Shown here piece after piece: positions 8,566 through 38,825 of a stretch of DNA of 64,000 nt. Each line of letters begins with the position of its first letter. The stretch's first letter is position 1. This stretch comes from Acidobacteriota bacterium. Its GTDB lineage: Bacteria; Acidobacteriota; Terriglobia; Acidiferrales; UBA7541. The stretch covers positions 1 to 64,000 of the forward strand of contig JAMCWK010000101.1 of assembly GCA_023481105.1 (NCBI GenBank), in the 5' to 3' direction. A model generated the notes under the pieces. It did not search any database and was not told the origin of the DNA. It was given only the letters and a program-made list of their open reading frames with translations. The position numbers were made by a program, and so were the translations under genes.

Positions 8566-8641
8566 GGGCGTGTAGCTCAGCTGGGAGAGCACCTGCTTTG
8601 CAAGCAGGGGGTCGCCGGTTCGATCCCGGTCACGTCCACCA
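8566..8641 (+). tRNA. tRNA-Ala (anticodon TGC), intact; integration target
   Basis: A complete 76-nt cloverleaf. The acceptor stem is GGGCGTG/CACGTCC (one G-T pair), with a D-arm GCTC...GAGC, anticodon stem CCTGC/GCAGG, and loop TTTGCAA with anticodon TGC at 8599-8601. The T-arm carries the invariant TTCGATC loop, and a genomically encoded CCA closes the gene. Its last 49-51 bases recur four times downstream (15858, 22683, 44824, 57454) without the 5' half. This marks it as the attachment target of the islands that follow. Confidence 0.98.
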
Positions 8642-8713
8642 ATTATTTCAACTAGGTACGTCTTCGAATTCTCCGGGCCAGCCAACCGCCTGGTTTTGCA
8701 CCAGGTGACCTAC
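8642..8713. repeat. Left arm of island I (conserved post-tRNA sequence)
   Basis: The first ~72 bases after the tRNA match the sequence after the tRNA fragments at 15907 and 44873 with only scattered differences. Shared blocks include TACGTCTTCGAATTCTCC, GCCAACCGCCTG and CAGGTG. A small inverted repeat (CCTGG...CCAGG) lies at its end. Conservation at three separate boundaries, but not after the last tRNA fragment (57505 onward), indicates it is element-derived (a P'-type arm), not chromosomal. Confidence 0.85.
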
Positions 8714-9356
8714 TCAGCGCGCCGTCACCCACCACTCGGAAAAGTCGAATTTCATTGGAAATCGAGTGACCCCATGAAAAGTGTCTTTGAAAATGAGAGG
8801 AATGTAGAGCTACAAAATTGCCTACGCTCCCTTAACAGGACGATGCAGGCTGTCAAGCAAGACCGACAACTCTTTCACCTAAACTTCTGTGAACCAACCC
8901 GCCCTCGGCATCGCGAGGCGTTATGAATATGGTCCAGAGCTTGTCCAGGGCAGGAAGGGATGCGCCCCGTGAAGCGAATTGGCCCTCTGCCTCAGCGCCT
9001 GTGCCTGCGGACGCGCTCCGCAATCTTTCGACTTATATTAGTTGCGCACTTTCGCAAGTATTGAGCCATTTGCCCCAGTCCGCCCGGCGCGCACAGGGGC
9101 TCATTCTCGCTGTAGCGGATTTCCGCAGCGAAGGGACGGCCGCGGGCAGCTTCAATGCGCTTGTTTTCCTGGCCTTAGCGGAAAACCGTGGGAAAGCACA
9201 CAAAGCCTGCGCAAAATGTCCGGATAGGGGCTCCAGATTTTGACTGGTCTCCAGATTGCCCGCATTGTGGCTGGGAGTCCTGGTCAGACATCTGGATTCA
9301 TCCAACGCTTGTTCATTTGAAATGCCACCCAGGCCTCCCCCCATGGAGGTTTCACA
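8714..9356. other. Island I leader without a convincing gene
   Basis: About 640 bases between the left arm and the first island gene. Short open frames exist (for example 8923-9243) but have no domain, no membrane pattern and no good ribosome site except the one serving the next gene (GGAGG just before 9357). It probably holds the promoter and leader of the island I operon; I cannot point to a specific -35/-10 pair. Confidence 0.5.
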
Positions 9357-11156
9357 ATGAGGAAGTTAATTCCCAGTGTTCTCGTCCTGCTTTTGCTCGC
9401 CGGGCCGGGATGGGCGCAGAGCTCTAATGCCAATATTCCCCCGCAGCAAACACCCACACCCGATGATCCAGCGAAACTTCGGCAGGAAATTGAACAACTC
9501 AAACTAGTGATCCAACAACTGGAAAACCGCGTGGCAGCGCAGGAAAAGACCACGCAGCAGGCCGCCGCTCCGGCAGCGAAAGAAAAGGACAAGACCGAAG
9601 AGCTGACGGTGACGGTGCAAGAGCTAGAGAAGCGCGTTTCGGAGACGGAAAAGCAGGGGGCGCTGGATCGCGTGCGCCTCACCGGCGATTACCGCTTCGA
9701 GGCCCATTCCATCTGGGGCAAAGTGCCTTCGCACTTTGACGGCATGGAACTGCAAAACCTGCTGGTCAAGACGATGTTTGCGATGAACATCCTCGGCGCG
9801 CCGCCGACGAGCATCGCGCAAATCAACAACACCGTTTCCAGCAACTACGCGGGCTACCAGCAATTCACAAACAATCTGACGTTCAGCCAATTGCAGGCGG
9901 CCATGGCGTCGTTTCCTCCGGCCTTGCAGCAGCAACTGTTCGGCATGCTGATGCCCTCCACGTTTGTTCCTTCCTACAAAGACAACAACAAAATCATGTA
10001 CACGAACCGCGTGCGGCTGAACTTCGACGCCAAGGTGGCGGACAACGTCAGCTTCGCCGGGCGGTTGAGCATGTACAAAGTGTTCGGCGATTCTACCGGC
10101 GTGCAAGTGTTTAATGGGCAGCCCAACACGCTCAACATCGACGGAACCACCGGGGGCGTCCCGAACTCCGACCAGGTGCGTGTGGAGCGCGCGTATTTCA
10201 GTTGGAACAACATCGGCGGATCGAAATTGTATCTTTCCATTGGCCGCCGTCCTTCCACCTACGGCCCGCCGATGAATTTCCGCCAGGACGAGTTGCGCGG
10301 CGGCACGCCTTCGGGCGCGCTGATCGATTACCAGTTCGACGGCATCACCGTCGGCTACAAATTCAACGACAACATGGTCTGGCGGCTGTGCTACGGGCTG
10401 GGCTACGAGTCCGGGTTCGGCAACGGCAACCTGCTCAAGATGCCGCAGGACCGGCTGAAGGATGTGCACTTCCTCGGCGCGAACCTCGACTTCTGGACCT
10501 CGGAGAGGACGCTGCTACAAGCAACGTACGCGCACGCCTTCAACGTCACCGACGGCTTTAACGGCCTGGTGGTGATGCCGCGAAATCCGCTGACCGGCGA
10601 TCCCATCACCGGCCCGGCTGTGCTGCGTTTCACGCCTTCCACGAACCTGGGTGAAATCAACTTGTTCGGGGTGAACTTCACGCGGAAACAGGGACCCGTG
10701 GATCTGTACGTCAGCGGGAACTACTCCGGCACGCGGCCCAACGGGAAAACCACGCCGTTCGGCGGGATGATGTCCGATCCGTTCGAGACACCGGTGAACC
10801 GCAACGGCTTCATGGTGCTGGCCGGCTTGCGCTATAACTTCCCGAATGATGAGCGGACCAAGATGGGCTTCGAGTTCAACCACGGCAGCAAGTACTGGTT
10901 CAATTTTGCCCAGGCCGAGGACGACATCATCGCACCGAAGACGAACACGCGCGGGCAGGTGTATGAGACCTACTTCACCCACCGCATCAATGAGCGGTTC
11001 ATCTTCAAAGCTGACTTCATCAAGTATGCCTACACCTACTCCGGTTCGGGGTGGCACCTCGGTGCGCCGAAGAAGCTGGACACGAATCCCATCCTGGGAT
11101 TCCCAACCTACAGCGACGCCTTCAAGCTCTCGATGGGCTTGATTGCAAGGTTCTAA
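9357..11156 (+). CDS. Outer-membrane beta-barrel (DUF3373/porin-like) with N-terminal coiled coil
   Basis: Predicted 599-residue outer-membrane protein. A signal peptide (about 1-20, ending GWAQ) is followed by a coiled-coil stretch with heptads (about 35-100, LRQEIEQLKLVIQQLENRV). A long barrel region then alternates short strands and Gly/Asn turns and ends in ...LIARF; the terminal Phe is the usual assembly signal of outer-membrane barrels. The layout resembles DUF3373-type proteins found beside respiratory molybdoenzymes and cytochromes, and coiled-coil barrels of the OprP/SLH type are an alternative. GGAGG 8 bases upstream sets the ATG. As first gene of the operon it could pass substrate, or hold a cytochrome, for the downstream oxidoreductase. 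Confidence 0.75.
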   Translation: MRKLIPSVLVLLLLAGPGWAQSSNANIPPQQTPTPDDPAKLRQEIEQLKLVIQQLENRVAAQEKTTQQAAAPAAKEKDKTEELTVTVQELEKRVSETEKQGALDRVRLTGDYRFEAHSIWGKVPSHFDGMELQNLLVKTMFAMNILGAPPTSIAQINNTVSSNYAGYQQFTNNLTFSQLQAAMASFPPALQQQLFGMLMPSTFVPSYKDNNKIMYTNRVRLNFDAKVADNVSFAGRLSMYKVFGDSTGVQVFNGQPNTLNIDGTTGGVPNSDQVRVERAYFSWNNIGGSKLYLSIGRRPSTYGPPMNFRQDELRGGTPSGALIDYQFDGITVGYKFNDNMVWRLCYGLGYESGFGNGNLLKMPQDRLKDVHFLGANLDFWTSERTLLQATYAHAFNVTDGFNGLVVMPRNPLTGDPITGPAVLRFTPSTNLGEINLFGVNFTRKQGPVDLYVSGNYSGTRPNGKTTPFGGMMSDPFETPVNRNGFMVLAGLRYNFPNDERTKMGFEFNHGSKYWFNFAQAEDDIIAPKTNTRGQVYETYFTHRINERFIFKADFIKYAYTYSGSGWHLGAPKKLDTNPILGFPTYSDAFKLSMGLIARF

Positions 11157-11220
11157 AGAACCTGTGACCGGGGCCGCGCAACGCCGGCCCCGGTTACACA
11201 ACAGACAATCGGAGGTTGTC

Positions 11221-11571
11221 ATGAACAAAAAAAGGACTTTGAAAGACACCATTAAACTTCTCGCAGTGACCATCATCCTGGCGCTGAGCGTGACGGTCGC
11301 GTGGAGCAAGCCGAAAGGTAACGAGACGAAGGGACGCTTCTACTTCAAGCAGACCTGCAAGAGCTGCCATGCGAAAGGCGCATCAGGAGGGGAAATCACT
11401 CCCATGAGCAAGACGCAGGCACAGTGGGAGCGGTACTTCACGGCTGGGAAACACAATAAAGGTACGGAGCTTCTCTCCAAGCACCTTAAAGCGGAGCAAC
11501 TGAATGACGCGTGGGTCTATCTGGTTAACCACGCCGTGGATTCACCACAGCCGGAAACCTGCGGGAAGTGA
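11221..11571 (+). CDS. Exported monohaem cytochrome c
   Basis: Predicted 116-residue periplasmic c-type cytochrome. A signal peptide (hydrophobic about 12-28, ending VAWS) precedes one haem motif CKSCH; the Met of ITPMSK is a plausible sixth ligand. A C-terminal helix of the type 'WVYLVNHAVD' follows. GGAGG lies just before the ATG at 11221. Position between the barrel protein and the molybdenum subunit suggests it carries electrons between the periplasmic enzyme and another partner. A longer reading from 11143 would start inside the previous gene and lacks a signal peptide at its N-terminus. Confidence 0.88.
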   Translation: MNKKRTLKDTIKLLAVTIILALSVTVAWSKPKGNETKGRFYFKQTCKSCHAKGASGGEITPMSKTQAQWERYFTAGKHNKGTELLSKHLKAEQLNDAWVYLVNHAVDSPQPETCGK

Positions 11572-11609
11572 CCGGACGAAATTCGTTCGCGAGAGACCGC
11601 GAGGAGCAT

Positions 11610-13784
11610 ATGGATCGGCGGAAATTCTTGAAAGTGGCAGCAGGAGGCGCGGCCGGGGCCGGCGTGGCCACGACTGGCTTCCTGCTCACCACGGCGGGAG
11701 AAAAGCCGGCTTCAGTCGTGGCGCGGCGCGAGGTGCCCACCACCTGCGAGATGTGCGTGAACAAGTGTTCCATGATCGCGGTGGTGGAAGATGGCGTCAT
11801 CAAGAAGCTGAATCCCAACCCGGAAAACCCGAAGTCACGCGGCATGCTTTGCGCCCGCGGAAACGCTGGAATTCAGCAGGTGTACGACCCCTCGAGGCTG
11901 AAGCGGCCGTTGATCCGTGTGGGAGCGCGCGGCGAAGGAAAATGGCGTCCGGCGAGCTGGGAAGAAGCGTTTGATTTCGCGGCGCAAAAACTGGCCGCTG
12001 TGAAAGAAAAATACGGCCCGCAGGGATCCCTGTGGTCCTCGACGGAGAGTTTTCAGGAGAGCTTTTTCAAGAGCCTGGGGTTGGCCTTTGGGTCGCCCAA
12101 CGTGGAGCGGCATCCGACGCTGTGCCTCGCATCCGTCAACCTGGCGTACTCGCTCACGTACGGCACGATGCCGTCGTTCGATCTGCAAAACGCGAAGTAC
12201 ATCATCATTTCCGGCGCGAACCGCTTGGAATCATTCATCACCCCGGACACCATGGACCTGATCCAGTCGGCCACAGATCGCAAGGCCCGGCTGATTTATC
12301 TCGACCCGCGCTTCACGGTCACGGCTGCGAAAGCAGACGAATGGTATCCCATCAAACCGGGCACCGACTTGGCCTTTATTCTGGCCATGCTGCGCGTCAT
12401 CGTTGAAGAAGACCGCTTCGACAAGGAATTTGTCTCCACTTACTGCGTGGGATTCGAACAGCTCGCCGAGCATGTGAAGCCGTTCACCCCGGAATGGGCG
12501 GCGTTCGAAACAGAAATTCCCGCGAAAGAAATCGTTCGCATTGCGCGCGAATTCTCGGATGCGGCGCCGCGCGCCGTGTATTACGCCGGGCGCCGTTCTT
12601 CCTGGTACCGCGACGATTTTTCCATGCGCCGCGCGCAGGCCATTCTGAATGCCATTGTCGGAAGCTGGGATCGCCAGGGCGGGATGGTGCCCAATGGCAA
12701 GGTGGAGCTGGGAGAATTGCTCTTCCTGCCGTGGGACGATCCCGTGGCGCCGCGCGCGGACGAAATGGACAAAAACTTTCCCCTCGCCGCCAAGGGCGAC
12801 GGCGCTTATTTGACACTCCGCGAAAACGTTCTCGCCGGCACTCCCTATCCTGTAAAAGCCTGGATGGTCCACAAGCAGGATCCCATGAACATGCTGCCGG
12901 ACCAGGCGAAAACCATCCGCATGATCGAGCAGATGGATTTCATCGGCGTCATTGACATTCAGATGAGCGACACCGCCTGGTACGCCGACGTGATCTTCCC
13001 GGAGTCCACCTTTCTGGAGCGGCAGGACCCGGTGGAAATCCTTCCCGGCATCTGGCCCGTCGTGGTTATGCGCCAGCCGGTGATCCCACCGCTTCACGAC
13101 ACGAAACCTACGCTGGAAATTGTCCAGGGTTTGGCGAAACGGTTGAACCTGTCTCAGTATTTCGACTACACCATCGAGCAGTGGGTCCATGAACAGGTGA
13201 AAGATCTTCCCGTGAACTTACCGCTCGAGCATTTGAAACAGCACGGGGTGTACGTGCCTCCGGGCTTCCCGAAATACGGAACCACGCTGAAGCCGGAGCA
13301 TCGCTTCGTCACCAAGTCCGGCAAGATCGAACTTTTTTCCGAGCGGCTCAAGGAAGCGGGTTACGATCCGCTGCCGGTTTATCAGTCGCCTCAGCAACCG
13401 CCGGCGGGCAAGCTCCGCCTGATCCTGGGACGCCGAGCGTACATCACGCAGGCCAACAGCACCAACAACCCCTGGCTAAGTTCTTTCCAGCCGGAAAATG
13501 ATCTCTGGCTGCACCCGACGGTCGCGGAAAACATGGGCATTCAAGATGGAGACAAGGTCGAGGTCTCCAGCAGCGTGGGCACGGTGCGCCTGAAAAGCCG
13601 GGTCACGCAGGAAATCCGTCCAGACTGTGTATTCATGCTCCACGGATACGGCAAGCGTTCCAAGTGGCAAAGGCTGGTGTACGGCGTGGGTGCGGCCGAT
13701 GCACAAATTCTGGAGACGGCGTGGGACAAAGTATCCGGCGGCGCTGCGTTCCACGAAACGTTCGTGAAAGTAAGAAAGGTATAG
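11610..13784 (+). CDS. Tat-exported molybdopterin oxidoreductase catalytic subunit (PsrA/PhsA-like)
   Basis: Predicted 724-residue periplasmic catalytic subunit of a DMSO-reductase-family enzyme. It begins MDRRKFLKVAAGG, a Tat signal (RRKFLK). The [4Fe-4S] site reads C-x2-C-x3-C-x27-C (CEMCVNKC ... MLCARG). The conserved HPTLCLASVN supplies a probable Cys ligand to Mo, as in polysulfide/thiosulfate reductases. A molybdopterin-dinucleotide-binding C-terminal domain (RLILGRRAYITQANSTNNPW) completes it. Length fits PsrA/PhsA (about 750) better than TtrA or ArrA. The ATG at 11610 (GAGGAG upstream) gives the Tat signal at the N-terminus; a GTG at 11568 overlapping the previous stop would bury it. 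Polysulfide, thiosulfate, arsenate or a reverse (oxidase) reaction all remain possible. Confidence 0.88.
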   Translation: MDRRKFLKVAAGGAAGAGVATTGFLLTTAGEKPASVVARREVPTTCEMCVNKCSMIAVVEDGVIKKLNPNPENPKSRGMLCARGNAGIQQVYDPSRLKRPLIRVGARGEGKWRPASWEEAFDFAAQKLAAVKEKYGPQGSLWSSTESFQESFFKSLGLAFGSPNVERHPTLCLASVNLAYSLTYGTMPSFDLQNAKYIIISGANRLESFITPDTMDLIQSATDRKARLIYLDPRFTVTAAKADEWYPIKPGTDLAFILAMLRVIVEEDRFDKEFVSTYCVGFEQLAEHVKPFTPEWAAFETEIPAKEIVRIAREFSDAAPRAVYYAGRRSSWYRDDFSMRRAQAILNAIVGSWDRQGGMVPNGKVELGELLFLPWDDPVAPRADEMDKNFPLAAKGDGAYLTLRENVLAGTPYPVKAWMVHKQDPMNMLPDQAKTIRMIEQMDFIGVIDIQMSDTAWYADVIFPESTFLERQDPVEILPGIWPVVVMRQPVIPPLHDTKPTLEIVQGLAKRLNLSQYFDYTIEQWVHEQVKDLPVNLPLEHLKQHGVYVPPGFPKYGTTLKPEHRFVTKSGKIELFSERLKEAGYDPLPVYQSPQQPPAGKLRLILGRRAYITQANSTNNPWLSSFQPENDLWLHPTVAENMGIQDGDKVEVSSSVGTVRLKSRVTQEIRPDCVFMLHGYGKRSKWQRLVYGVGAADAQILETAWDKVSGGAAFHETFVKVRKV

Positions 13785-13794
13785 GGAAGCGGCC

Positions 13795-14346
13795 ATGGCA
13801 GCTCGCGCGAAACGCTACGCACTGGTGATTGACGCGCGAAAGTGCATCAACTGCAAAGCGTGTGTCGTGGCTTGCCGCGCGGAAAACGGCGTGCCGCTCG
13901 GGAAAAGCCGCAACTGGATCAATGAAGAAATCCGCGGAGAATATCCGCGCTTGTTGGCCACTTTCGAACCGGAGCAGTGCCATCACTGCCAGGATCCCGC
14001 TTGCGTGCGCGTGTGTCCCACCGGCGCGTCCCGGCAGCGCCCGGATGGTGTCGTAGTGATCAATCAGAGCGATTGCGTCGGCTGCCGCTACTGCATGATC
14101 GCGTGTCCTTACGATGCGCGGTTTTTCCGCGAGGATAGCGGCGTGGTGGAGAAGTGCGATCTGTGCGCCAGCCGCCTGGACCGGGGTGAGCTCCCGGCAT
14201 GCGTGGAAACTTGTCCCTCCAAGCTGCGCGTCTTCGGCGACATGAACGATCCCAGCAGTGACATCGCCAAGTTGCTGGCGACCCGGCAGTATCGCGTCAA
14301 GAAGGAAGAAGCGGGCACGAACCCGCGCATCTTTTACCTGTTGTAA
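13795..14346 (+). CDS. Four-cluster ferredoxin subunit (PsrB/NrfC/DmsB-like)
   Basis: Predicted 183-residue electron-transfer subunit with four [4Fe-4S] sets: CINCKACVVAC, CHHCQDPACVRVCP, CVGCRYCMIACP and the split CDLC...CVETCP. It passes electrons between the molybdopterin subunit and the membrane NrfD subunit. It has no signal peptide of its own, as usual for subunits carried out by a Tat partner. It lies 10 bases after the catalytic gene and 13 bases before the NrfD gene. Length and cluster layout are typical for the family. Confidence 0.93.
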   Translation: MAARAKRYALVIDARKCINCKACVVACRAENGVPLGKSRNWINEEIRGEYPRLLATFEPEQCHHCQDPACVRVCPTGASRQRPDGVVVINQSDCVGCRYCMIACPYDARFFREDSGVVEKCDLCASRLDRGELPACVETCPSKLRVFGDMNDPSSDIAKLLATRQYRVKKEEAGTNPRIFYLL

Positions 14347-14359
14347 GAGGCCGCCTGCG

Positions 14360-15319
14360 ATGAAGACAATTGAGTGGGGATTTCTGATCGTCAGCTACCT
14401 GTTCCTCGGGGGGCTTTCCGCGGGCCTTTTTTTTGCCTCGGGGCTTGCTGCTCTCCTTCAAAAAAACGAGCAGTCCGGAACGGATCGGATTGCGCGTTTC
14501 GGCGCATTGCTCGCGCCGTTGCCGGTGGCCGTCGGATGCCTGCTGCTGGTCTTCGATCTTGGAAAGTGGTATCGCTTCTACAAGCTGTTCCTTCATTTCG
14601 AATGGACCAGTCCCATGTCCATCGGCGCGTGGCTGCTGCTGGCTTTTTCTGTGGTTTCACTTTTGTGCGCCTATGCCTGGGTACCACAGGAGTGGCGCGA
14701 GCGCTTCTTTGCTGCGCTGCCGCCACGCCTGGCATTTCTTCGTCGTGTGAATCGCGATTTTTCCGCGTGGCGAAAACCGCTGGCACTGATTGGCTTGCCG
14801 ATGGCTGTGGGTGTGGGCATCTATACGGGAGTTTTGCTGGGCGCCGTGCAATCGCGGCCGTTTTGGAATACGAACCTGGTCGCGCAGATGTTCCTGTTTT
14901 CCGCACTGTCCAGCGGTTGTGCCGCGTTGATTCTCACGATCATCTTCAGCAAGGGCTCGCCGGAAGTTGCGGAGCTTCGCTTGCTCTACATGCTGGATAT
15001 TTGCTTTCTGGCTCTGGAGTTCTTCATTGTCGTTCCGTACATGATCCACGGGCAGTTGTCGGTGCAGGCGGTGCGCGAATCTCTCCATCTTATTCTGGGC
15101 GGGCCATTCACGGTGGTCTTTTGGGTTTTCTTTCTGGGGTTGGGGTTGCTTCTTCCCTTGGGCATTGAAATCCGCGAGACGATGCCCGCACTGTTGCGGA
15201 ACGGCAGGTTCCACTACAATAAGCACCTGACCGCAGTTACGGCTGTGCTGGTGCTTTCGGGCGGTTTTCTACTGCGGTACGTATTTGTGTTCGCCGGGCA
15301 GATGAGTGCGTTCAAGTGA
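14360..15319 (+). CDS. NrfD/PsrC-type quinone-interacting membrane subunit
   Basis: Predicted 319-residue integral membrane protein with eight or nine hydrophobic helices, starting MKTIEWGFLIVSYLFLGGLSAG, which matches the first helix of NrfD/PsrC proteins ('...FLGGLSAG...'). It should exchange electrons between the quinone pool and the FeS subunit. The ATG at 14360 opens directly into helix 1. A longer frame from 14258 overlaps the ferredoxin gene in another frame and is not supported. This completes a three-subunit Psr-like enzyme (A, B, C in order). Confidence 0.92.
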   Translation: MKTIEWGFLIVSYLFLGGLSAGLFFASGLAALLQKNEQSGTDRIARFGALLAPLPVAVGCLLLVFDLGKWYRFYKLFLHFEWTSPMSIGAWLLLAFSVVSLLCAYAWVPQEWRERFFAALPPRLAFLRRVNRDFSAWRKPLALIGLPMAVGVGIYTGVLLGAVQSRPFWNTNLVAQMFLFSALSSGCAALILTIIFSKGSPEVAELRLLYMLDICFLALEFFIVVPYMIHGQLSVQAVRESLHLILGGPFTVVFWVFFLGLGLLLPLGIEIRETMPALLRNGRFHYNKHLTAVTAVLVLSGGFLLRYVFVFAGQMSAFK

Positions 15320-15364
15320 AACCATCGGCGCTCTGGAGGTTGTCAAATCGCCGCGAGGGCAGCA

Positions 15365-15700
15365 ATGAAAAAGACAGTCAGCAAGGACATTGATGAAGAG
15401 ATTTACGAGCGGCAAGTGCGAATCTGTAAAGCATTTGCCAACCCCATCCGTCTGCGAATACTAGACTTGCTTTCCAATGGTGCGCAGAGTGGCGCGGCTT
15501 TGCAGGGCGCGCTGGGAATCTCGACCCCAAACCTTTCGCAGCACCTCGCTGTGCTCAAGGCGGCAGGTGTCGTCACCACGCATCGCAAAGGCAAACAAAT
15601 CCATTGCTCCTTGACCATGCCGGAAGTGAAGCAGGCCTGCCAGCTCATCCGGGATGTGTTGCGCGCCCAAATTCGGAACGGCCAAAAGCTCCGCGTGTAA
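15365..15700 (+). CDS. ArsR/SmtB-family transcriptional regulator
   Basis: Predicted 111-residue winged-helix repressor. It contains FANPIRLRILDLLSNG (first helix and turn), the recognition helix STPNLSQHLAVLKAAG, and the wing VVTTHRKGKQIHCSLT. It carries three Cys (residues 21, 81, 92), of which 21 and 92 flank the DNA-binding core. Such pairs sense metalloids or persulfide in some relatives. There is no classical ELCVCDL metal box. It has its own ribosome site (GAGGGCAGCA) and lies 45 bases after the NrfD gene, so it may be the last gene of the operon and its autoregulator. The ligand is unknown. Confidence 0.9.
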   Translation: MKKTVSKDIDEEIYERQVRICKAFANPIRLRILDLLSNGAQSGAALQGALGISTPNLSQHLAVLKAAGVVTTHRKGKQIHCSLTMPEVKQACQLIRDVLRAQIRNGQKLRV

Positions 15701-15721
15701 GGCATTTCCAGCCAATCCCTA

Positions 15722-15906
15722 CTGTAGGCAAAATTGTAGCTGTCGCTGCACCCTGAAACACCACGAAACAACACAAGACAACAAGTACTAGGCAAACGAA
15801 ACAGCACCAAACACTTCGAAACAACACCTGACAACACGCCACAACAAGCGCTAGAATCTGCTTTGCAAGCAGGGGGTCGCCGGTTCGATCCCGGTCACGT
15901 CCACCA
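15722..15906. repeat. Att copy 1: conserved arm plus tRNA-Ala 3' fragment (right end of island I)
   Basis: The arm (15722-15857) starts CTGTAGGCAAAATTG and contains direct decamers of the form GAAACANCAC at 15755, 15765, 15798 and 15818, plus GACAACA variants. It ends in GCGCTAGAAT. The tRNA fragment (15858-15906) is identical to the last 49 bases of the intact tRNA-Ala, including CCA. The 5' half of the tRNA is missing. The arm recurs at 22554, 44688 and 57320. Repeated decamers beside a crossover core are what tyrosine-integrase arm sites look like. Confidence 0.9.
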
Positions 15907-15980
15907 ATTATTTTCAATTAGATACGTCTTCGAATTCTCCGGGCAAGCCAACCGCCTGCTTTCGACCCAGGTGGCCTACA
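15907..15980. repeat. Left arm of island II
   Basis: A ~74-base sequence after the tRNA fragment that aligns with 8642-8713 and 44873-44940: shared ATACGTCTTCGAATTCTCC, CAAGCCAACCGCCTG and CCCAGGTGG. The following ~210 bases up to 16190 hold no gene I can support and probably contain the operon promoter. Confidence 0.82.
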
Positions 15981-16190
15981 CCGCAGTTTCAAACAACGTC
16001 TCGCAAGATCTTGTTTCCATTAGGCGTGCGGGCGAACCGCGCCCACAACTCAGGAAAGAAGAGGATTCTTGATTCACAAATTTATCTACACTTGGCGATG
16101 GCCAGCTGTCATCAATCTCAGCCTGGGCAGGCTGTAGAACACTTTAGATGCTTGACGCCGTGCAGACTTGTCGCCGACAATGATTTGACC

Positions 16191-16598
16191 ATGCGTCGCG
16201 CTTGGGCGGCTCAGACAATTCTAACGGTACTTCTGGCGTTCGTCGGAGCGCCGTTTCTCCATTTTCATTTGGCGGACAACCATGGCTCCGATGGCCAGCT
16301 CACGCGCGGGCATGAAACTATTGTCCATGCGCATCTTCCCGAGGGTGACGTTGCTCCAGATGCGACCGGCGAACATGACGCTGAACTCTCTCGCGCCAGC
16401 CACGATGCGAAGTCTCTGGAAGTTTTCGCTGCCGTTCCGAATAATGCCTCAGTTCTTTTATTGCCGTTTTTGGCTGCCTCGCGGATTGAGTTAGCCCCTG
16501 CCCCGATTTCGGTTGAGCGTTTGGCTCTGCAATCTGTCACGCCGACGCACGATCCACCGCTTCTTGATTCCACGGGCTCAAGAGCCCCTCCTGCATAA
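16191..16598 (+). CDS. Small exported His-rich protein upstream of the efflux operon
   Basis: Predicted 135-residue protein with an N-terminal hydrophobic signal or anchor (about 5-24) and a His/Asp/Glu-rich stretch (FHLADNHGSD, HETIVHAHLPEG, EHDAELSRASHD) that could bind metal. A second hydrophobic patch (VLLLPFLAAS) follows. Similar small proteins often precede CusCBA-type operons, which supports a periplasmic metal-handling role, but I know no named family. The start is the ATG at 16191. A longer frame from 16011 lacks a signal sequence and runs through the att arm. Confidence 0.55.
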   Translation: MRRAWAAQTILTVLLAFVGAPFLHFHLADNHGSDGQLTRGHETIVHAHLPEGDVAPDATGEHDAELSRASHDAKSLEVFAAVPNNASVLLLPFLAASRIELAPAPISVERLALQSVTPTHDPPLLDSTGSRAPPA

Positions 16599-16669
16599 CC
16601 CTGCCTGACGCCCGCCTCTGGCGGCGCGCGCACGTGTGTCTCAATCCTAAATTGATTGCGAGGTGCAGG

Positions 16670-17905
16670 ATGTCGTTTTGCGGACGGCGATGTGTTTTTC
16701 AATTTGCATTCCTAGTTGCACTGAGCGCTGCTTCGGCTGCCGCCCAGGAGATGACTGAGGCGGACGCCTTGCGAAGATTCGAGCGAGAGAACGCTCAGGT
16801 GCGGGCGCTCGCGGCTCGCGTGCGTGAGGTTCGCGCCGAATTCCGAGCGGCCAGCCTAGCGCCGAATCCCAGCATCACCTACACGCGCGAGGATTCGGCA
16901 GGCACGCAAGACAGTTTTCTTCTCGTTCAGCAGGAGCTGCCGATCACGGGGCGCCTCGGTCTGCTGCGGCGCGCGGGTGATTCCGCGACGAGCGCTGCCC
17001 AGGCCAGCACCAACTATTCGCTGCTTCTGCTGCGAAGCGAATTCCGGCTTGCCTTTTACGCACTCCTGCTGGCGCAGCAGCGCGAAACACATCTCGCCAA
17101 ATCTGTGAATGACTTGGACGGGATCCTCAGCATCCTGCGCGACCGCGAACACGAAGGCGAGGGTTCGAAATTCGACCAGTTGCGGGCCGAGCGCGAACTG
17201 GCGGACGCGCGAGCAAATCACGCTTCGGCTCAAGTGCTGCTGGCGCAAGCCCGTTCGCGGCTCGCGGCGATGCTCGCGCCTGGCACAGAGCCTGCATCGC
17301 TCTCCGCGAAGGGCGAGGTGGCTGGCGGCGCCGCGCTGCCTCCGGTGCAGGACCTAGTGGCACGCGCGCTGGACAAGCGCGGCGACTTCGCGGCCCGGAG
17401 AAATGATCTCCAACGCTTTGAATACGAAGAACGCGCCGCCCAGCGCCTGCGCATTCCGGAGCCGGTTCTTTCCGCAGGTCTGAAGCGGACCACGCTTCCC
17501 GGCGTGAGGGACAGCGGGTACGCCGTTTCTGTGACCGTGCCAATCCCGCTCTTCAACCGTGGCCAGACTGAAGTGGAGCGCACGCGCGCGGCGCAGGAGC
17601 GCACGCAAACTGAAATCGCCGCGCATCGCCAGCAGATCGAAACGGAAGTGAAAGCCACATACGAGGGTCTGCGCTTGCGGCGTCAGATTGCCGAGCAGTA
17701 CGCGAAGGAACTCGGTCAAAAAGGTGCGGAGCTTTCCCGAATCGCACAGATCGCGTATCAGGAAGGCGAGCAGGGGATTCTGGAATTACTCGACGCCTAT
17801 CGCACTGCTCTGTTTTCGCGTTTGCAGGCGCTGGAGCTGGCATGGTCAGCCAAGCAGGCGGAAATCGAATTGAACCGGGCAGTCGGTGAGGAGGTTTTGC
17901 CGTGA
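16670..17905 (+). CDS. Outer-membrane efflux channel, TolC family (CusC/CzcC-like)
   Basis: Predicted 411-residue outer-membrane channel of a tripartite metal efflux pump. A signal peptide (to about residue 24, ASAAAQ) is followed by long amphipathic helices with TolC-repeat signatures (SLAPNPSITYTRE, VTVPIPLFNRGQTEVERTRA, YQEGEQGILELLDAYRTALFSRLQALEL). The ATG at 16670 has GAGG upstream and puts the signal peptide first. Its stop TGA overlaps the GTG start of the adaptor gene (GTGA), which indicates coupled translation. Confidence 0.9.
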   Translation: MSFCGRRCVFQFAFLVALSAASAAAQEMTEADALRRFERENAQVRALAARVREVRAEFRAASLAPNPSITYTREDSAGTQDSFLLVQQELPITGRLGLLRRAGDSATSAAQASTNYSLLLLRSEFRLAFYALLLAQQRETHLAKSVNDLDGILSILRDREHEGEGSKFDQLRAERELADARANHASAQVLLAQARSRLAAMLAPGTEPASLSAKGEVAGGAALPPVQDLVARALDKRGDFAARRNDLQRFEYEERAAQRLRIPEPVLSAGLKRTTLPGVRDSGYAVSVTVPIPLFNRGQTEVERTRAAQERTQTEIAAHRQQIETEVKATYEGLRLRRQIAEQYAKELGQKGAELSRIAQIAYQEGEQGILELLDAYRTALFSRLQALELAWSAKQAEIELNRAVGEEVLP

Positions 17906-19431
17906 GGAAATGCATGGTTTTCATTCTGCCGCTGATCTTGCTGGCAGCATGCAGCAAAAGCGCACCACCGGCGAAAACGGCAGAGCAGTCAGTGACTTTG
18001 GCCGTGACGCGGTGGTCGGACAAGACAGAGCTGTTCATGGAGAATCCGCCGCTCGTGGCCAGCGAAAATGCGCGCTTCGCAGTGCATTTCACCGACCTGC
18101 GCAATTTCAATCCTCTTACGCAGGGAAAAGTAACCATCGAACTTCGCTCTGCCGCAGGCAGAAGCGAAATATTTCAAACAGAAGCGCCCTCCAGCCCGGG
18201 CATTTTCGGCGTCACCGTGAAGCCCAGCGCGGCGGGCAACTTTTCAATGACGGTGCGATTGGATTCGCCGACGCTCAAAGACACACACGAACTCGGCGAA
18301 GTCCAGGTGTACGCCGATGCGCGGGCCGCGGCAAAAGCGGAGCAGTCGGAAGAAGGAGAAGTTATCCGATTCCTGAAAGAGCAGCAGTGGACGCTGGACT
18401 TCGCCACCGTGGCGGTTGGCGAGCGCGCGTTGCGCGAAAGTGTGCGTGTGCCCGCGGAGGTGCGTCCGCGAACCGGCGGTGAAGCCGAGATCGTTGCTCC
18501 GGTTGCCGGGCGACTTTCGGCTACGAGCGCAATCCCAGCCGTGGGGACACTCGTGCAAAAGGGTCAAGTCCTCGCCCGGATCATCCCGCGCACGGCAACT
18601 CCTTCGGATCGCGCAACCTTGGACCTGGCCCTGAGCGAAGCGAAGACGGCGTTGAGTCTTGCTAGGCGAGATCGTGAACGCGCAGAGCGCCTCGTAACGG
18701 CCGGTGCCGTACCTGCGAAGCGGTTGGATGAAGCCAAGGCCGCCGAGGCCACGGCACAAGCGCGGCTCGATGCGGCGCAAGCCCGACTCGCACAACACGA
18801 GTCCTCACGCAGCGCCGATGGGGACACACCGGACGGTAGCCAATTCGTACTTCGCGCGCCGATTGCGGGCATCGTTGCCGCCTCGCACGGTATGCCCGGC
18901 GCAAGCGTTGAGGAAGGCGAAAGTCTTTTCCGAATCGTCACCACCGACCCTGTATTCATCGTCGCAAGCGTGCCGGAAGGGGAAGCCGGGCGGTTGCGTC
19001 AGCTTGCAGGAGGAGAACTGGAACTCACCGGGCAACCCAGTCCGATGCCGCTGGGACGCGTGGTGACTGTGGGCCGCGTGGTGGATGCAGCGTCGCGCAC
19101 CCTGCCGGTGATTTTTGAAGTTCGTAATCCAGACGCGCGGCTGGCGGTGGGGCAGAGTGTCTTCGTTCGCTTGTTCACCAGCACAGCAACGAAGGAGCTC
19201 GCTGTGCCGGAGTCTGCAATTGTGGACGACGCCGGACGGCCCGTTGTCTTTGTGCAAGTCGCAGGTGAATCGTTCGCGCGGCGCGCCGTTCGGCTGGGCA
19301 ACCGCGAAGCTAGTTATGTGCAGGTTTTGGATGGCGTAAAGCTGGGAGAGCGCATCGTGACACGCGGCGCATACCAGATTCGTCTCGCGGCCATGTCCTC
19401 GCAAATTCCCGCGCATGGTCATGTTCACTAG
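17902..19431 (+). CDS. Periplasmic adaptor lipoprotein (CusB/CzcB-like) with extra N-terminal domain
   Basis: Predicted 509-residue membrane-fusion protein. A lipobox (LLAACSKS, Cys about residue 16) anchors it. Residues about 30-140 form an extra beta-rich domain (FAVHFTDLRNFNPLTQGKV ... FGVTVKPSAAGNFSM) resembling FixH/YtkA-like modules. The HlyD/CusB core follows: a barrel-sandwich (PVAGRLSATSAIPAVGTLVQKG), an alpha-hairpin (about 240-300) and a membrane-proximal domain. No Met-rich copper stretch is visible. A GTG at 17902 overlaps the upstream stop; an ATG at 17914 is the alternative. It links the outer channel and the RND pump. Confidence 0.88.
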   Translation: MRKCMVFILPLILLAACSKSAPPAKTAEQSVTLAVTRWSDKTELFMENPPLVASENARFAVHFTDLRNFNPLTQGKVTIELRSAAGRSEIFQTEAPSSPGIFGVTVKPSAAGNFSMTVRLDSPTLKDTHELGEVQVYADARAAAKAEQSEEGEVIRFLKEQQWTLDFATVAVGERALRESVRVPAEVRPRTGGEAEIVAPVAGRLSATSAIPAVGTLVQKGQVLARIIPRTATPSDRATLDLALSEAKTALSLARRDRERAERLVTAGAVPAKRLDEAKAAEATAQARLDAAQARLAQHESSRSADGDTPDGSQFVLRAPIAGIVAASHGMPGASVEEGESLFRIVTTDPVFIVASVPEGEAGRLRQLAGGELELTGQPSPMPLGRVVTVGRVVDAASRTLPVIFEVRNPDARLAVGQSVFVRLFTSTATKELAVPESAIVDDAGRPVVFVQVAGESFARRAVRLGNREASYVQVLDGVKLGERIVTRGAYQIRLAAMSSQIPAHGHVH

Positions 19432-19440
19432 GAGACAGCG

Positions 19441-22400
19441 ATGATTGACGGATTGATTCGGTGGTCGCTGCGGAATCGCGGGCTGGTGCTGGTCCTGGCG
19501 GCCGGATTTCTGGCCTGGGGCGGTTACGTGGTTTCAACGATTCCCGTTGACGTGCTGCCGGACTTAACCGCTCCCACGGTGACCGTGCTGGTGGAAGGGC
19601 GCGGCATGGCCCCCACGGAAATGGAATCGCTGGTCACCTTTCCCATCGAAGCATCGCTGAACGGTGCAGCGGGCGTGCGGCGCGTGCGCTCGGCCACGGC
19701 CGTGGGCATCGCGGTAATTTGGGTCGAGTTCCAGTGGGGTGAAGATATTTACCGTGCCCGTCAAACGGTGACCGAGAAACTCAGCGTCGTGGCGGGAAGC
19801 CTTCCGCCGGAGGTCGAGCCGCCCGTGCTGGCACCCATCTCCTCCGTCATGGGTGAGATTCTGTTTATCGCGCTCAATTCGGAAAAGCATTCGCCGCTGG
19901 AGGTTCGCACTGTGGCCGATACAGTGATCCGCCGGCGCCTGCTGGCCGTGCCCGGCGTGTCGCAGGTAACACCGATTGGCGGCGGGGAGAAGCAATATCA
20001 GGTGCTTGTGTCTCCTGCGAAGCTGAAGGCATACAAAGTATCGCTCACCGAAGTGAAAGAGGCGCTTCGCCGTTCAAACCGCAACACTTCGGCGGGTTTC
20101 CTGGTCACCGGCGGACAGGAATTTCTGATTCAAGGAGTGGGGCGCGCCAGCGATCTCGAAAGCATCGGGCAGACGGTAGTTGCCACGCGCGGAACACAGC
20201 CAATTTTGGTGGAGCACATCGCCCAAGTCCAGATCGGCGCTGCGCTGAAGCGCGGGGAAGGCTCTCACAACGGCAAGCCAGCAGTGATTCTTGGAATTCA
20301 GAAGCAGCCCGGCGCAAACACTCTTGAACTGACACGGGCGCTGGATGCAGTGCTCGACGATATTCAGCCGTCCTTGCCCGAAGGGATGACCATCGAAAAG
20401 CATATCTTCCGCCAGGCGGACTTTATCGAAGCCTCCTACCGCAACTTGCTCGGGGCGCTTCGTGATGGCGGCCTGCTGGTTATTGTGGTTGTTTTCGTTT
20501 TTCTGGCGAACTTGCGTGCTTCCTCCATCACAGTTGTGGCGATCCCCCTTTCCCTGATGGCGGCGGTGATCGTGATGAAATTCGCCGGGGCCACCATCAA
20601 CAGCATGACGCTTGGCGGCTTGGCCATCGCCGTGGGCGCCATTGTGGACGACGCGATTATTGACGTGGAAAACGTCTTCCGGCGGCTTCGTGAAAACGCG
20701 CAGAAGCTGCCCGAGGAAAGACAGTCCGCTCTTGATGTGGTGTTCAATGCCAGCAGTGAAATCCGCGGCTCCATTGTTTTCGCCACAATGATTATTATTC
20801 TGGTATTCCTACCGTTGTTCTTTCTGAGCGGGGTGGAGGGGTTGCTGCTGCGCCCGCTTGGACTCGCCTACATTGTAGCGCTCTTCGCTTCGCTCGTGGT
20901 CGCCCTTACAGTAACCCCCGCTCTGTGTTCTTATCTACTGCCCCGAGCGAAGACCGTCCTCGAAGGCCACGAGCCGGCCCTCGTGCGATGGCTGAAGCAT
21001 CGTTACGAGCGCGACCTCCCCTGGGCCCTGGATCACTCCGGACTCGTGCTCGCGGTGTCTGCGCTTCTTCTCGCGGCGGCCGTGGCCTCCTTTTTCTGGA
21101 CAGGCCGTGCGTTCTTGCCCGAGTTTAACGAAGGCACGCTGACAATTAGCGCTGTCACGCTGCCGGGTACCAGCCTAGAAGAGTCCGATAAACTCGGCAG
21201 AACTGTGGAGCAGATTCTTCACAGCATTCCCGAAGTGAGCTCGACCGCGCGGCGCACGGGTCGCGCCGAACTTGACGAGCACGTCCAGGGCGTCGAGTCC
21301 GCCGAGATTGACGTCGGATTGAAGATGCGCGAGCGCCCCAAAGCCGAGATGCTGGCCGAAATGCGCCAACGACTGTCGCTGGTGCCCGGAATGAACGTCA
21401 CCATCGGTCAACCCATTTCACACCGCATTGACCACATGCTCTCCGGAACGCGCGCCAATATCGCCGTCAAGATTTTCGGCGACGATTTGCAATCACTGCG
21501 AGACTTGGCCAAGCAAGTAGAAGCGGCGATGCGTGACGTGCCCGGCGTAGTGGATCTTTCCACTGAACAGCAGACCGACATCCCAACAATTCGCGTTCGT
21601 TTTGACCGAATGGCGCTGGCTCGCTACGGCATGCCGGTCGGTGATGCAGCGAGGGCACTGCAAGCCGCTTTCGTGGGGCTGCAAGTTGGTCAAATCTTCG
21701 AAGGACAGGTGGCCTTCCCGCTCGTAGTGCGGTATCCATTTGATAGCCGCGCAGACATCGGGGCCGTTCGCCAAACGCTGATTGATACGCCGTCCGGCGC
21801 GCGGGTTCCTCTCGGCGCCATTGCGGATATCCGCGAGGATCGCAGCCCGAACTTCGTCAGCCGCGAAAACGTGCAGCGCAAGATCGTGGTGCAATGTAAC
21901 GTCGCGGGGCGCGACCTACACGGCGTTGTCAACGACGTACGGCGGCACGTGCAAGCTTCCGTGAAACTACCGCGCGGCTACCATGTCGATTATGGCGGAC
22001 AGTTCGAAAGCGAGGCCCAAGCCTCGCGCTTGCTGTTGTGGCTGGGCCTGGCCGTCATCCTCGGCATCCTGGTAATTCTCACGGCGGCCTTCCGCTCTTT
22101 CACCGATGCCCTGATCATCATGTTCAATCTGCCGCTGGCGCTGATTGGCGGAGTGGTTGGTGTGCTCCTTACGGGCGGCGTACTGTCCGTTGCTTCCATC
22201 ATTGGGTTCATCACACTGTTCGGCATCGCCACGCGCAACGGCATCATGATGATCTCGCACATTAAGCACCTGGCGGAGGTACAAGGCATCGCAAACTTCC
22301 GCCAGGCAGTCATGCGCGGCGCAATCGAGCGACTTTCTCCGATCCTGATGACCGCGCTTGCGGCGGGACTTGCATTGATCCCACTCGCCCTGGGTGCGGG

Positions 22401-22566
22401 CAAGCCCGGCAGCGAGCTGGAAGCCCCGATGGCCATTGTCATCCTGTTTGGCTTGCTTTCTTCAACGGCGCTGAACATGGTAATCGTTCCAGCTGTGTAC
22501 TGGCGCTTTGGAAGGAAACCGCTACAACCGAACGAAAGCCAAATTCAGGTGCTGGCAAAATTGTAG
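19441..22566 (+). CDS. Heavy-metal efflux RND pump (CzcA/CusA family)
   Basis: Predicted 1041-residue proton-driven RND transporter with 12 membrane helices and two large periplasmic loops. It starts MIDGLIRWSLRNRGLVLV, as HME-RND pumps do. The helix-4 signature reads AIVDDAIIDVENVFRRLREN; its paired acidic residues differ from the best-known Cu/Ag (CusA) and Zn/Co/Cd (CzcA) versions, so the metal is unresolved. Length is normal. The last residues (VLAKL and stop) are encoded by bases identical to the start of the att arm shared by all islands, so the C-terminus was probably altered or completed when the island formed. Confidence 0.92.
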   Translation: MIDGLIRWSLRNRGLVLVLAAGFLAWGGYVVSTIPVDVLPDLTAPTVTVLVEGRGMAPTEMESLVTFPIEASLNGAAGVRRVRSATAVGIAVIWVEFQWGEDIYRARQTVTEKLSVVAGSLPPEVEPPVLAPISSVMGEILFIALNSEKHSPLEVRTVADTVIRRRLLAVPGVSQVTPIGGGEKQYQVLVSPAKLKAYKVSLTEVKEALRRSNRNTSAGFLVTGGQEFLIQGVGRASDLESIGQTVVATRGTQPILVEHIAQVQIGAALKRGEGSHNGKPAVILGIQKQPGANTLELTRALDAVLDDIQPSLPEGMTIEKHIFRQADFIEASYRNLLGALRDGGLLVIVVVFVFLANLRASSITVVAIPLSLMAAVIVMKFAGATINSMTLGGLAIAVGAIVDDAIIDVENVFRRLRENAQKLPEERQSALDVVFNASSEIRGSIVFATMIIILVFLPLFFLSGVEGLLLRPLGLAYIVALFASLVVALTVTPALCSYLLPRAKTVLEGHEPALVRWLKHRYERDLPWALDHSGLVLAVSALLLAAAVASFFWTGRAFLPEFNEGTLTISAVTLPGTSLEESDKLGRTVEQILHSIPEVSSTARRTGRAELDEHVQGVESAEIDVGLKMRERPKAEMLAEMRQRLSLVPGMNVTIGQPISHRIDHMLSGTRANIAVKIFGDDLQSLRDLAKQVEAAMRDVPGVVDLSTEQQTDIPTIRVRFDRMALARYGMPVGDAARALQAAFVGLQVGQIFEGQVAFPLVVRYPFDSRADIGAVRQTLIDTPSGARVPLGAIADIREDRSPNFVSRENVQRKIVVQCNVAGRDLHGVVNDVRRHVQASVKLPRGYHVDYGGQFESEAQASRLLLWLGLAVILGILVILTAAFRSFTDALIIMFNLPLALIGGVVGVLLTGGVLSVASIIGFITLFGIATRNGIMMISHIKHLAEVQGIANFRQAVMRGAIERLSPILMTALAAGLALIPLALGAGKPGSELEAPMAIVILFGLLSSTALNMVIVPAVYWRFGRKPLQPNESQIQVLAKL

Positions 22567-22733
22567 CTGTCGCTGCACCCTGAAACACCATGAAACAACA
22601 CGAAACAGCAAGTACTAGGCAAACCAAACATCACCAAACACTTCCACACACCACCTGACAACACGCTACAACAAGCGCTAGAACCTGCTTTGCAAGCGGG
22701 GGGTCGCCGGTTCGATCCCGGTCACGTCCACCA
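22554..22733. repeat. Att copy 2: conserved arm plus tRNA-Ala 3' fragment (right end of island II)
   Basis: The arm begins GGCAAAATTGTAGCTGTCG inside the last codons of the RND pump and carries the same AAACAACAC-type repeats and CAAGCGCTAGAA end as the other copies. The tRNA fragment (22683-22733) matches the last 51 bases of tRNA-Ala with one A-to-G change at 22698. That substitution breaks the anticodon-stem pairing of a tRNA, as expected for a copy free to drift. Confidence 0.9.
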
Positions 22734-22968
22734 TTTATTTCTATGAATTAAATTGTGTTTCTGGTTTTTCGGGACCAGGAGGTCGGCGGCTTATCCCGAG
22801 GCTTCGGGACCACTCGCCCCCACCAATTAGTTCTCGTCAGCTTTCAAATCGAATTGGCCGCCGGTTTATTCCGAGGTTCTGTTCGGAGATCTCGGGACGA
22901 GACCGCTCGCGCCGAACATTTTTTCTTTTCCTGAATGAAATTTATCTTCCAACCCGGAGGATTTTTTC

Positions 22969-23700
22969 TCAGAGGTTGAGGAATCGGATGGCGAAGCCGC
23001 AGAGGGCGATCGCGGCGCCAGCAAGCGCGTGGGTAAAGCGCTGGAAGCGCTCCATCGGCAGATGCTCGAGGCCGGCGCGGCAGGCCAGCACAGCGAACGA
23101 CATCGTCGCCAGCGTTGCTACGGCGGACACCACCGTGACCAGAAGCACTCCCCAAAAGCTGTGCCGCGCGGCTGGGACAGTCAACAACGGGATTAGCGGC
23201 TTGCACGGGCCGGTAACGAAAATGGTAAACAAAATCCACGCAGTGAGGCGGGCAGGCAGCGAAGCTTGTGAAGCAGCATCGGCCAGATGAACGTGGCTGT
23301 GCTCCCGGTCATGCCGATGGATGTGCACGTGGACTGTACCGTCAGCGTGCCCGTGAACGTGGGAGTGCTCGCGATGGCGGATGGACTGCTGCAAACCCCA
23401 AGCGAAGTAGATCGGGCCAAAGGCAATCAGAAACCAGCCAGCCATTGCCTCGCGAGACGCATCTACATGCGGCGCACCGGCAAAGGCCAGTCCAAGCGCG
23501 GCACCCGCTGCGCCCAGCACGACCGAGCTGAGTATGTGGCCCAACCCGCAGGCCAGGGTGACGCCAATCACCCGCGCGCGGGTCCAACCTTGCGCACGGC
23601 TCATGACCACGAACGGAGCGTAGTGGTCCGGCCCGAGAAGGGTGTGAACTACGCCGAGGGTGCCGGCAGTCCAGAGAAGAAAAATCAACTCGGCATTCAT
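22969..23700 (-). CDS. Nickel/cobalt transporter-like membrane protein (NicO/RcnA-HupE type)
   Basis: Predicted 243-residue inner-membrane protein with six hydrophobic helices. It has GVVHTLLGPDHYAPFVVMSRA near the N-terminus (a Gly-x-x-His-x-x-x-Pro-Asp-His metal motif), a second HxxS-type helix (LACGLGHILSSV), and a central cytoplasmic loop packed with His (HREHSHVHGHADGTVHVHIH). This is the NicO/sulfite-exporter-like layout. Beside a complete [NiFe] hydrogenase set, nickel supply or homeostasis is the natural role; export cannot be excluded. It is transcribed divergently from the operon. The ATG at 23700 is chosen because it opens directly into helix 1. Confidence 0.8.
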   Translation of the reverse strand: MNAELIFLLWTAGTLGVVHTLLGPDHYAPFVVMSRAQGWTRARVIGVTLACGLGHILSSVVLGAAGAALGLAFAGAPHVDASREAMAGWFLIAFGPIYFAWGLQQSIRHREHSHVHGHADGTVHVHIHRHDREHSHVHLADAASQASLPARLTAWILFTIFVTGPCKPLIPLLTVPAARHSFWGVLLVTVVSAVATLATMSFAVLACRAGLEHLPMERFQRFTHALAGAAIALCGFAIRFLNL

Positions 23701-24249
23701 GGATTCTGCGCTCGCGATCCAGCAATCCAAGAGAGGACCGGAGGCCGGGAAGTGAATCTGGAGCGAGCACTCCAGATGGAAGCGGCTTCCGCGCCGGAAA
23801 CTAACAAAACAGAGGCAATATTTAACCAAGTTAAAATTCCACTGGTTTAAAGAACACAGGCGAGTGGGGCAAAAAGCCCGTTGTATGCGCCACGTCCGCG
23901 CCGCGCGGTCCACGCCGACCCGCACTCCTCTTTCATTTTCACTGGCTTGGTGAAGTCACGCGCTGTACGCCGTGTGGACTCCAGAGTGCTCGCTCCAGAG
24001 CAGACTCTGAATCGCAATGGGGGTGTGCGTGAAATCCACGCGCACGATAGAAGAAGTGGCAGGATCGGCCTCCCTGTCCGACCTGCGTTCATTCCCCTCC
24101 GATGCGTTTTTCCAATGCAATGGAAGCCCGGCGCGGCCAGTGACCCACTGGTTGTTGAGTAATTCTACTTGCGGGTTGAAAAATTCCACATCGCGGAGCG
24201 GAGAGCGAAGCGCCGTAAGCATCGGCGCGCACCGAAGGCATGTAGAGCC
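23701..24249. promoter_or_regulatory. Divergent intergenic region of island III with repeated CTCCAGA boxes
   Basis: A 549-base gap between the nickel transporter (leftward) and the hydrogenase operon (rightward). The 7-mer CTCCAGA occurs four times: as a perfect inverted pair with 6-bp spacer at 23757-23776 (TCTGGAG...CTCCAGA) and as a direct pair with 7-bp spacer at 23979-23999. A second palindrome, TTTAACCA...TGGTTTAAA, spans 23821-23851. These are good operator candidates for one of the island's regulators. I found no gene or clear sigma-70 promoter here. Confidence 0.55.
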
Positions 24250-26323: not shown

Positions 26324-26684
26324 GCTGAGAAAAAAACGAGCGGAGGCCCAGAAGGGCATCTACCTACGGGAGGGCGAGTTCCGCGGCAAGATTATTGTGC
26401 ACATGGGCACCTGCGGCATCGCCGCCGGGGCGCGAGGCATCGTCGCGGCGTTTCTGGAGGAGCTGGAGCGAAGCGGGACGAAGGACATCATGGTCACGAC
26501 CTCCGGGTGCGCTGGACTCTGCTCGAAAGAGCCCATGGCCACAGTGGAAATGCTGAACACGCCCCCGGTGAAGTACGGGGAACTCACACCCGACAAAGCC
26601 AGAAACATTTTCAAAGAACACATCGTCGGCGGGACGGCCGTGGCTGCCTACGCTCTGGGGATGGGCTCGGAGAGGGGAGCATAG
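26295..26684 (+). CDS. Thioredoxin-like [2Fe-2S] ferredoxin (HndB-like)
   Basis: Predicted 129-residue cytoplasmic ferredoxin with the thioredoxin-like cluster pattern HMGTCGIAAGARG ... TSGCAGLCSKEP (four Cys). HndB-type subunits sit between the NuoE- and NuoF-like genes in bifurcating hydrogenase operons, exactly as here. It overlaps the upstream gene by 29 bases and is followed 4 bases later by the NuoF-like gene. Two in-frame ATGs (26295, 26301) are possible; GGGGAG fits the first. Confidence 0.88.
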   Translation: MAMAKLTLDELRKKRAEAQKGIYLREGEFRGKIIVHMGTCGIAAGARGIVAAFLEELERSGTKDIMVTTSGCAGLCSKEPMATVEMLNTPPVKYGELTPDKARNIFKEHIVGGTAVAAYALGMGSERGA

Positions 26685-26688
26685 CCCG

Positions 26689-28578: not shown

Positions 28579-28598
28579 GCGGGGCCCGAGGAGCCAGC

Positions 28599-30934: not shown

Positions 30935-30936
30935 CA

Positions 30937-31356: not shown

Positions 31357-31368
31357 GGTGAGGGAGCA

Positions 31369-34695: not shown

Positions 34696-34696
34696 G

Positions 34697-35155: not shown

Positions 35156-35160
35156 CTCAA

Positions 35161-35217: not shown

Positions 35218-35220
35218 ATC

Positions 35221-36144: not shown

Positions 36145-36147
36145 GCG

Positions 36148-38813: not shown

Positions 38814-38825
38814 AGGAGCGCAGCC

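Follow-up and report, generated by a model that had tools for sequence, protein, structure and literature searches.

How do four operon-sized blocks of unrelated genes come to lie one behind another downstream of a single tRNA gene, and what put them there? The question is raised by contig C148 of a 3.45-Mb Acidobacteriota genome bin (154 contigs, 85% complete), whose named relatives are Acidobacteria groundwater bins; the 64,000-nt stretch analysed here is called the window. In it, four tandem segments of 7.3, 6.8, 22.1 and 12.6 kb follow an intact tRNA-Ala(TGC), and every segment closes with a right arm of ~135 nt followed by 49 nt that copy the 3' half of this tRNA (Table 1). The reading that we consider likely is that the window holds a tandem array of four non-autonomous cargo elements, integrated site-specifically at the 3' half of tRNA-Ala(TGC).

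Organization of the array

The core copies extend from the anticodon stem of tRNA-Ala to its CCA end, and arms and cores are in register at all four boundaries. Read along the strand, the components run tRNA - P' - element 1 - P - core - P' - element 2 - P - core, continued by another left arm - element 3 - P - core - P' - element 4 - P - core - chromosome. Such core-P'-cargo-P repeats are expected from successive insertions at a single tRNA gene, as is the absence of a left arm past 57504. Each element would have brought a left arm (P'), operon-sized cargo and a right arm with decamer repeats (P), and each insertion would have rebuilt the tRNA with the 49-nt core that it carried while displacing the older 3' half downstream. 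The crossover may lie within the anticodon stem-loop, and catalysis would be supplied in trans by a lambda-type tyrosine integrase encoded on a helper element or at another chromosomal locus.

Table 1. Features of the tRNA-Ala(TGC) array in the window
Feature	Position	Strand	Evidence
Intact tRNA-Ala(TGC), presumed attB/attL	8566..8641	+	ARAGORN; Rfam RF00005, 66 bits
Left arm (P') type I, element 1; inverted repeat CTGGTTTTGCACCAGG at +49	8642..8720	+	
Element 1: DUF3373 protein, cytochrome c, PhsA/PsrA-like molybdopterin oxidoreductase, FeS, NrfD, ArsR-type regulator	8642..15906	+	
Right arm (P), element 1, 10-nt periodic	15722..15856	+	
tRNA-Ala 3'-half copy (core), 49 nt, identical to intact gene	15858..15906	+	
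Left arm (P') type I, element 2	15907..15984	+	
Element 2: OEP, HlyD, CusA/CzcA-type RND efflux operon	15907..22733	+	
Right arm (P), element 2	22549..22683	+	
tRNA-Ala 3'-half copy, one mismatch	22685..22733	+	
Left arm type II, element 3, common with G002 tRNA-Pro element	22734..22768	+	
Decayed tRNA-Pro(CGG) 3' fragment with short insert	22769..22825	+	blastn 95% over 21 nt, 94% over 16 nt
Element 3: Hdr/NuoEF/FlpD-linked [NiFe] hydrogenase, DRTGG/CBS/PHP proteins, Hyp maturation genes	22734..44872	+	
Right arm (P), element 3	44688..44822	+	
tRNA-Ala 3'-half copy, one mismatch	44824..44872	+	
Left arm (P') type I, element 4	44873..44950	+	
Element 4: chemosensory operon (CheW, CheR, MCPs, CheA, CheB, hybrid kinase)	44873..57504	+	
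Right arm (P), element 4	57320..57454	+	
tRNA-Ala 3'-half copy, array end; chromosome (B') next, without left arm	57456..57504	+	

Against the array model, neither an empty tRNA-Ala site nor a circular form was seen; a search for the empty site by way of the upstream hslU and the downstream kinase gave none, the synteny of relatives stopping short of spanning the site. GC content is uninformative, being nearly equal in the elements (0.575-0.606) and their flanks (0.61). In addition, a ~40-nt repeat at 8440-8486, just 5' of the tRNA-Ala gene, recurs on many contigs here and in related genomes.

The junctions might also be the work of a transposon that targets tRNA genes, such as a casposon or a Tn7-like element. 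Casposons leave short target duplications and carry terminal inverted repeats, whereas the present junctions have a 49-nt tRNA 3' half as direct repeat and P and P' arms that differ from each other, and the cargo contains no Cas1 or Tns genes. Although tRNA-Pro is mentioned in at least part of the casposon literature, this origin is hardly credible.

The right arm and its decamers

The initial annotation had described one ~135-nt right arm at all four boundaries, and alignment of the four copies (15722-15853, 22554-22680, 44688-44819 and 57320-57451) bears this out, with 92-95% identity over 127-132 nt. The decamer GAAACANCAC lies exactly where it had been reported in the first copy, at 15755, 15765, 15798 and 15818. 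It occurs 12 times in the window against 0.56 expected (100 shuffles, largest count 3), with 11 of the 12 sites inside the four arms, and the supposedly constant end GCGCTAGAA is indeed invariant across them. In each of the five arms tested, autocorrelation was strongest at a lag of 10 (z 3.2 to 6.0). In a class-wide arm alignment the unit reads nnTTCAACAr, and the GAAACA form of the window is a local variant. Furthermore, G002 and G088, which belong to different genera, have arms that lack exactly one 10-nt unit, and G084d likewise has one unit fewer; since the length differs by exactly one decamer, helical phase seems to be kept. From this repeat structure we infer that the decamers are probably arm-type sites of a lambda-type tyrosine integrase. 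The divergence of the arms within the array (5-8%) is no sign of recent movement; the elements may still be mobile.

Being repeated, A/C-rich and strand-asymmetric, the arm could also be a repeat that is transcribed, a condition that the initial annotation had set against its own reading, or else a palindromic repetitive element or a retroelement derived from tRNA, in each case merely located by the tRNA copies. It has no Rfam match and folds no better than shuffles (z-scores 0.4 and 1.5), only six copies exist in 3.45 Mb, all by tRNA 3' fragments, and a separate left arm co-occurs with it, all of which makes such an origin very improbable.

Two types of left arm

The left arm reported as common to the boundaries at 8642, 15907 and 44873 was recovered with an 81-88% match over 73 nt, and it is absent after copy 4 (57505), again as reported. 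This type I arm, carried by elements 1, 2 and 4, opens with TTTTCAAnnAGATAC and contains the inverted repeat CTGG-N-CCAGG. Among nine sites compared, the inverted repeat or a degenerate form of it starts 49 or 50 nt past the CCA in seven; it lies at 37 nt in G161 and is lost at the element 2 site. A comparable inverted-repeat match is held by ~2% of random 100-nt stretches, and the conserved repeat is present across several genera. P shows clear 10-nt repeats. P' is a conserved arm, though less so than P, with one TTTTCAA unit and the inverted repeat at +50 and without a repeat array, and it exists in two types.

The left boundary at 22734, seemingly unshared, is the second type (II). Its arm matches the left end of a tRNA-Pro element in G002, a genome of the same genus, with a score of 47 vs a shuffle maximum of 29, and it also resembles edges in G210 and G304. 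At three type II left ends (the L139 edge at ~1060, L073 at 5330-5375 and L141 at ~980) the arm leads into TGTAGnCGATTTTGTnnCGG or a variant, and TGTAGnCGATTTTGTnnCGG is the opening motif of the right arm. At 22757-22825 of the window, the type II arm meets the anticodon loop of the tRNA-Pro fragment at CTGGT, and the left end of element 3 looks as if an arm inverted repeat had recombined with a Pro core.

Altogether, left and right arms lie on opposite sides of the tRNA 3'-half core and nowhere else in the genome, and no P' follows the outermost right junction, where none would be expected, which agrees with the proposal that they are the P' and P halves of one attP family.

Distribution of the arms across the class

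In its own genome the right arm has six copies, all touching tRNA 3' fragments, four of tRNA-Ala and two of tRNA-Pro(CGG); the latter follow an intact tRNA-Pro(CGG) on contig C95. BLASTN found the arm in only three further genomes of the family, while a sequence-only arm model, whose tRNA content is at most two bases of one row, located full-length arms in 15 of 299 class genomes and 13 genera. A tRNA-Pro(CGG) fragment stands in register at 18 of 20 loci checked, the exceptions being G099, the weakest match, which has no core, and G002, where the Pro fragment is split by an insert. With G002 and G088 left out, as both had contributed to the model, the fragment is directly joined to the arm at 17 of 18 loci, all outside the genus of the window. 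The Pro fragment was not built into the model, so its adjoining the arm is an independent test that the arm belongs to an att site.

These results overturn one part of the initial annotation, namely the tie of the family to tRNA-Ala: across the class the family sits on tRNA-Pro(CGG), with the Ala array as an exceptional case. That annotation had also held that arms found away from tRNA-Ala would undo its reading. Such arms do occur, but they sit on tRNA-Pro fragments, which strengthens the att interpretation. In the arm tree, built from short sequences and with moderate support, the Ala arms are nested among Pro arms; one Pro arm falls inside the Ala group, its source bin having 9% contamination. 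Together with the decayed Pro fragment at the left end of element 3, this nesting suggests that the tRNA-Ala array arose by a target switch of a Pro-specific element family. The tRNA-Ala genes of G087 and G088 are without arms.

Several minor features accompany the Pro loci. On C95 (L009, 15379-15550), two short tandem tRNA-Pro 3' fragment repeats with a unit of ~85 nt lie between two elements, resembling empty cassettes. At L023 (7780-7963 and 10930-11080) and L143 (after 2580), tRNA-Pro fragments are broken or trailed by GC-rich, REP-like palindromic inserts. A viral contig (L226, 11724-11880) carries a tandem CATTCAACAG decamer array followed by GACACGT-type decamers; the array resembles the class arm unit and scores weakly with the arm model (E 0.008). 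The other viral-contig matches were discarded as chance, L225 lying inside a coding region and L227-L230 having no arm, and plasmid matches were to the tRNA only.

Search for the recombinase

The bounded elements, 11 in number from four genera (G000, G002, G084, G161 and G210), contain no tyrosine recombinase, nor does the cargo of the window or the rest of contigs C148 and C95, and none lies near intact arm pairs. A cognate helper was likewise not found in the own genome, the class sample, viral contigs, phages or plasmids. A survey of all PF00589 proteins of G000, G001, G002, G088 and nine class genomes returned two kinds of protein. Some are Xer-like, judged from sequence similarity and from their pairing; the others are integrases, for the most part adjacent to tmRNA or to other tRNA genes (Leu, Ser, Gly, Glu, Phe, Lys, Val, Arg and others). 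No arm occurs in the ~3 kb flanks of 40 integrase loci. An intact integrase on C26, 1.4 kb from a G084 arm, was a promising candidate at first. It is placed past another left end, however, and the protein closest to it (67%) overlaps the tmRNA of G047, so that it is read as a tmRNA-island enzyme. Neither its frameshifted relative in G304 nor a truncated fragment in G084 C2 is a conserved partner. In G002, three consecutive tyrosine recombinases (C42:41209-46227; L061, L072, L063, L065) resemble a recombinase-in-trio and adjoin an integrase that shares 89% identity with L013, the tRNA-Leu integrase of the window genome.

Given this absence from the elements, the enzyme acts in trans, rides a helper that is usually missing, or was lost. 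The case for trans action is built on absence, as no cognate recombinase was found (in a window bin 85% complete). The attribution of the array to one tyrosine recombinase type is plausible but falls short of proof: no recombinase accompanies the elements or the intact arm pairs, and two left-arm types exist.

Two further accounts can be weighed here. The first is that host XerC and XerD integrate the elements, as they do other Xer-exploiting integrative elements. They are the tyrosine recombinases present throughout, and G161, which is 100% complete and has three arms, encodes besides its Xer-like pair only two integrases, one next to tRNA-Ser and one next to tRNA-Gly. Decamer arms are not a feature of Xer sites, which are short dif-like cores, unlike the anticodon stem-loop core flanked by arms on both sides found here, and Xer-mediated integration is thus very unlikely. 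The second is that the elements are degenerate islands, each of which once had an integrase beside the left arm and lost it, leaving a fixed graveyard without present mobility. Integrase loss is a standard route to cis-mobilizable elements (PMC5704250), decayed arms or Pro fragments are present in relatives (G213, G141, G047 and C95:18180), and the arms of the window differ by the 5-8% given above. On the other hand, none of the 11 bounded elements retains a visible integrase remnant between arm and cargo, and both arms are conserved across the class; repeated independent loss without arm decay is less simple than use in trans. Degeneration is a serious possibility that we nevertheless rate below even.

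Non-autonomous elements used in trans lead to a broader proposal, offered only tentatively. There may exist a class-wide system of operon-scale cassettes that never carry a recombinase and are moved in trans by a dedicated one encoded elsewhere; its two-arm att family would normally occupy tRNA-Pro(CGG) and would have been retargeted to tRNA-Ala in the genus of the window, with hybrid att sites recording the switch.

Relation to known systems

Like classical tRNA-integrated elements, the array has an intact tRNA at one end and displaced 3' fragments at the other (four, of 49 nt). Such elements also contain an integrase gene, usually by attL, and because this is absent the array does not qualify as an autonomous one. 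Its nearest known counterpart is the accretion of cis-mobilizable elements (CIMEs), which like the present elements retain attL and attR, have neither integration nor transfer genes and stack in tandem at one tRNA 3' end (Pavlovic 2004; PMC5704250). The CIMEs known so far have been described as decayed relatives of a resident ICE or IME (PMC5704250), whereas here no such relative was found, four elements stand in a row and the same arms occur at two tRNA genes. The ssrA-specific islands of Dehalococcoides are also tandem, carry metabolic cargo and have repeats of an RNA-gene 3' end, in their case that of tmRNA, at their borders; 15 of them lack an integration module, and the recombinase predicted to serve them, a CcrB-like serine recombinase, is encoded on sister islands (PMC3146451). 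The arms of the window, by contrast, are long, decamer-rich and two-sided.

Additive flexible genomic islands of Methylophilaceae, with 20-nt tRNA-Lys repeats, and tycheposons similarly place accessory metabolic genes by tRNA genes with recurring tRNA-end repeats; tycheposons encode a tyrosine recombinase, and conserved P and P' arms are not described for such islands in that account (PMC10872708). Integron cassettes and CALINs share with the array recombinase-less units that are moved in trans and stacked at one site, but they have attC hairpins, whereas the present elements are operons of 1-22 kb with tRNA cores and no hairpin (PMC11389934); arms that fold no better than shuffles are not structured attC sites. 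Island finders that start from an integrase would overlook these elements, while the arm model locates their exact ends. Furthermore, one att family at two tRNA genes of one genome provides a natural, testable example of target switching.

Cargo and element exchange

The bounded elements carry operon-sized cargo. In the window this comprises a PhsA/PsrA-like reductase (element 1), CusA/CzcA-type efflux (element 2), an Hdr-linked NiFe hydrogenase with maturation genes (element 3) and a chemosensory system (element 4); elsewhere it includes mercury and heavy-metal transport, GAF-HD signalling, TonB/YfiR/kinases, RHS, and MtrB-like electron transfer with a molybdoenzyme. At the tRNA-Pro site, G000 and G002 are syntenic on both flanks and have a GAF-HD element in common (83-86% identity). 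The first elements of these two species are unrelated, that of G000 being 3.7 kb with Mer/HMA genes and that of G002 ~11.7 kb with outer-membrane, lactamase-fold and amidase genes. Judged from the compared sequences, this difference is an element exchange at the att boundary. If true, the proposed reading of the array would account for the acquisition of whole operons by uncultured Acidobacteria of soil and groundwater (hydrogenases, anaerobic reductases, extracellular electron transfer, efflux and chemotaxis) without any visible mobile-element gene. Within element 3, genes for an HdrA2-like fusion, FlpD and Vhu-like hydrogenase subunits occupy 31369-37590, with NuoE/F-like genes just upstream, a set that suggests an electron-bifurcating hydrogenase as cargo.
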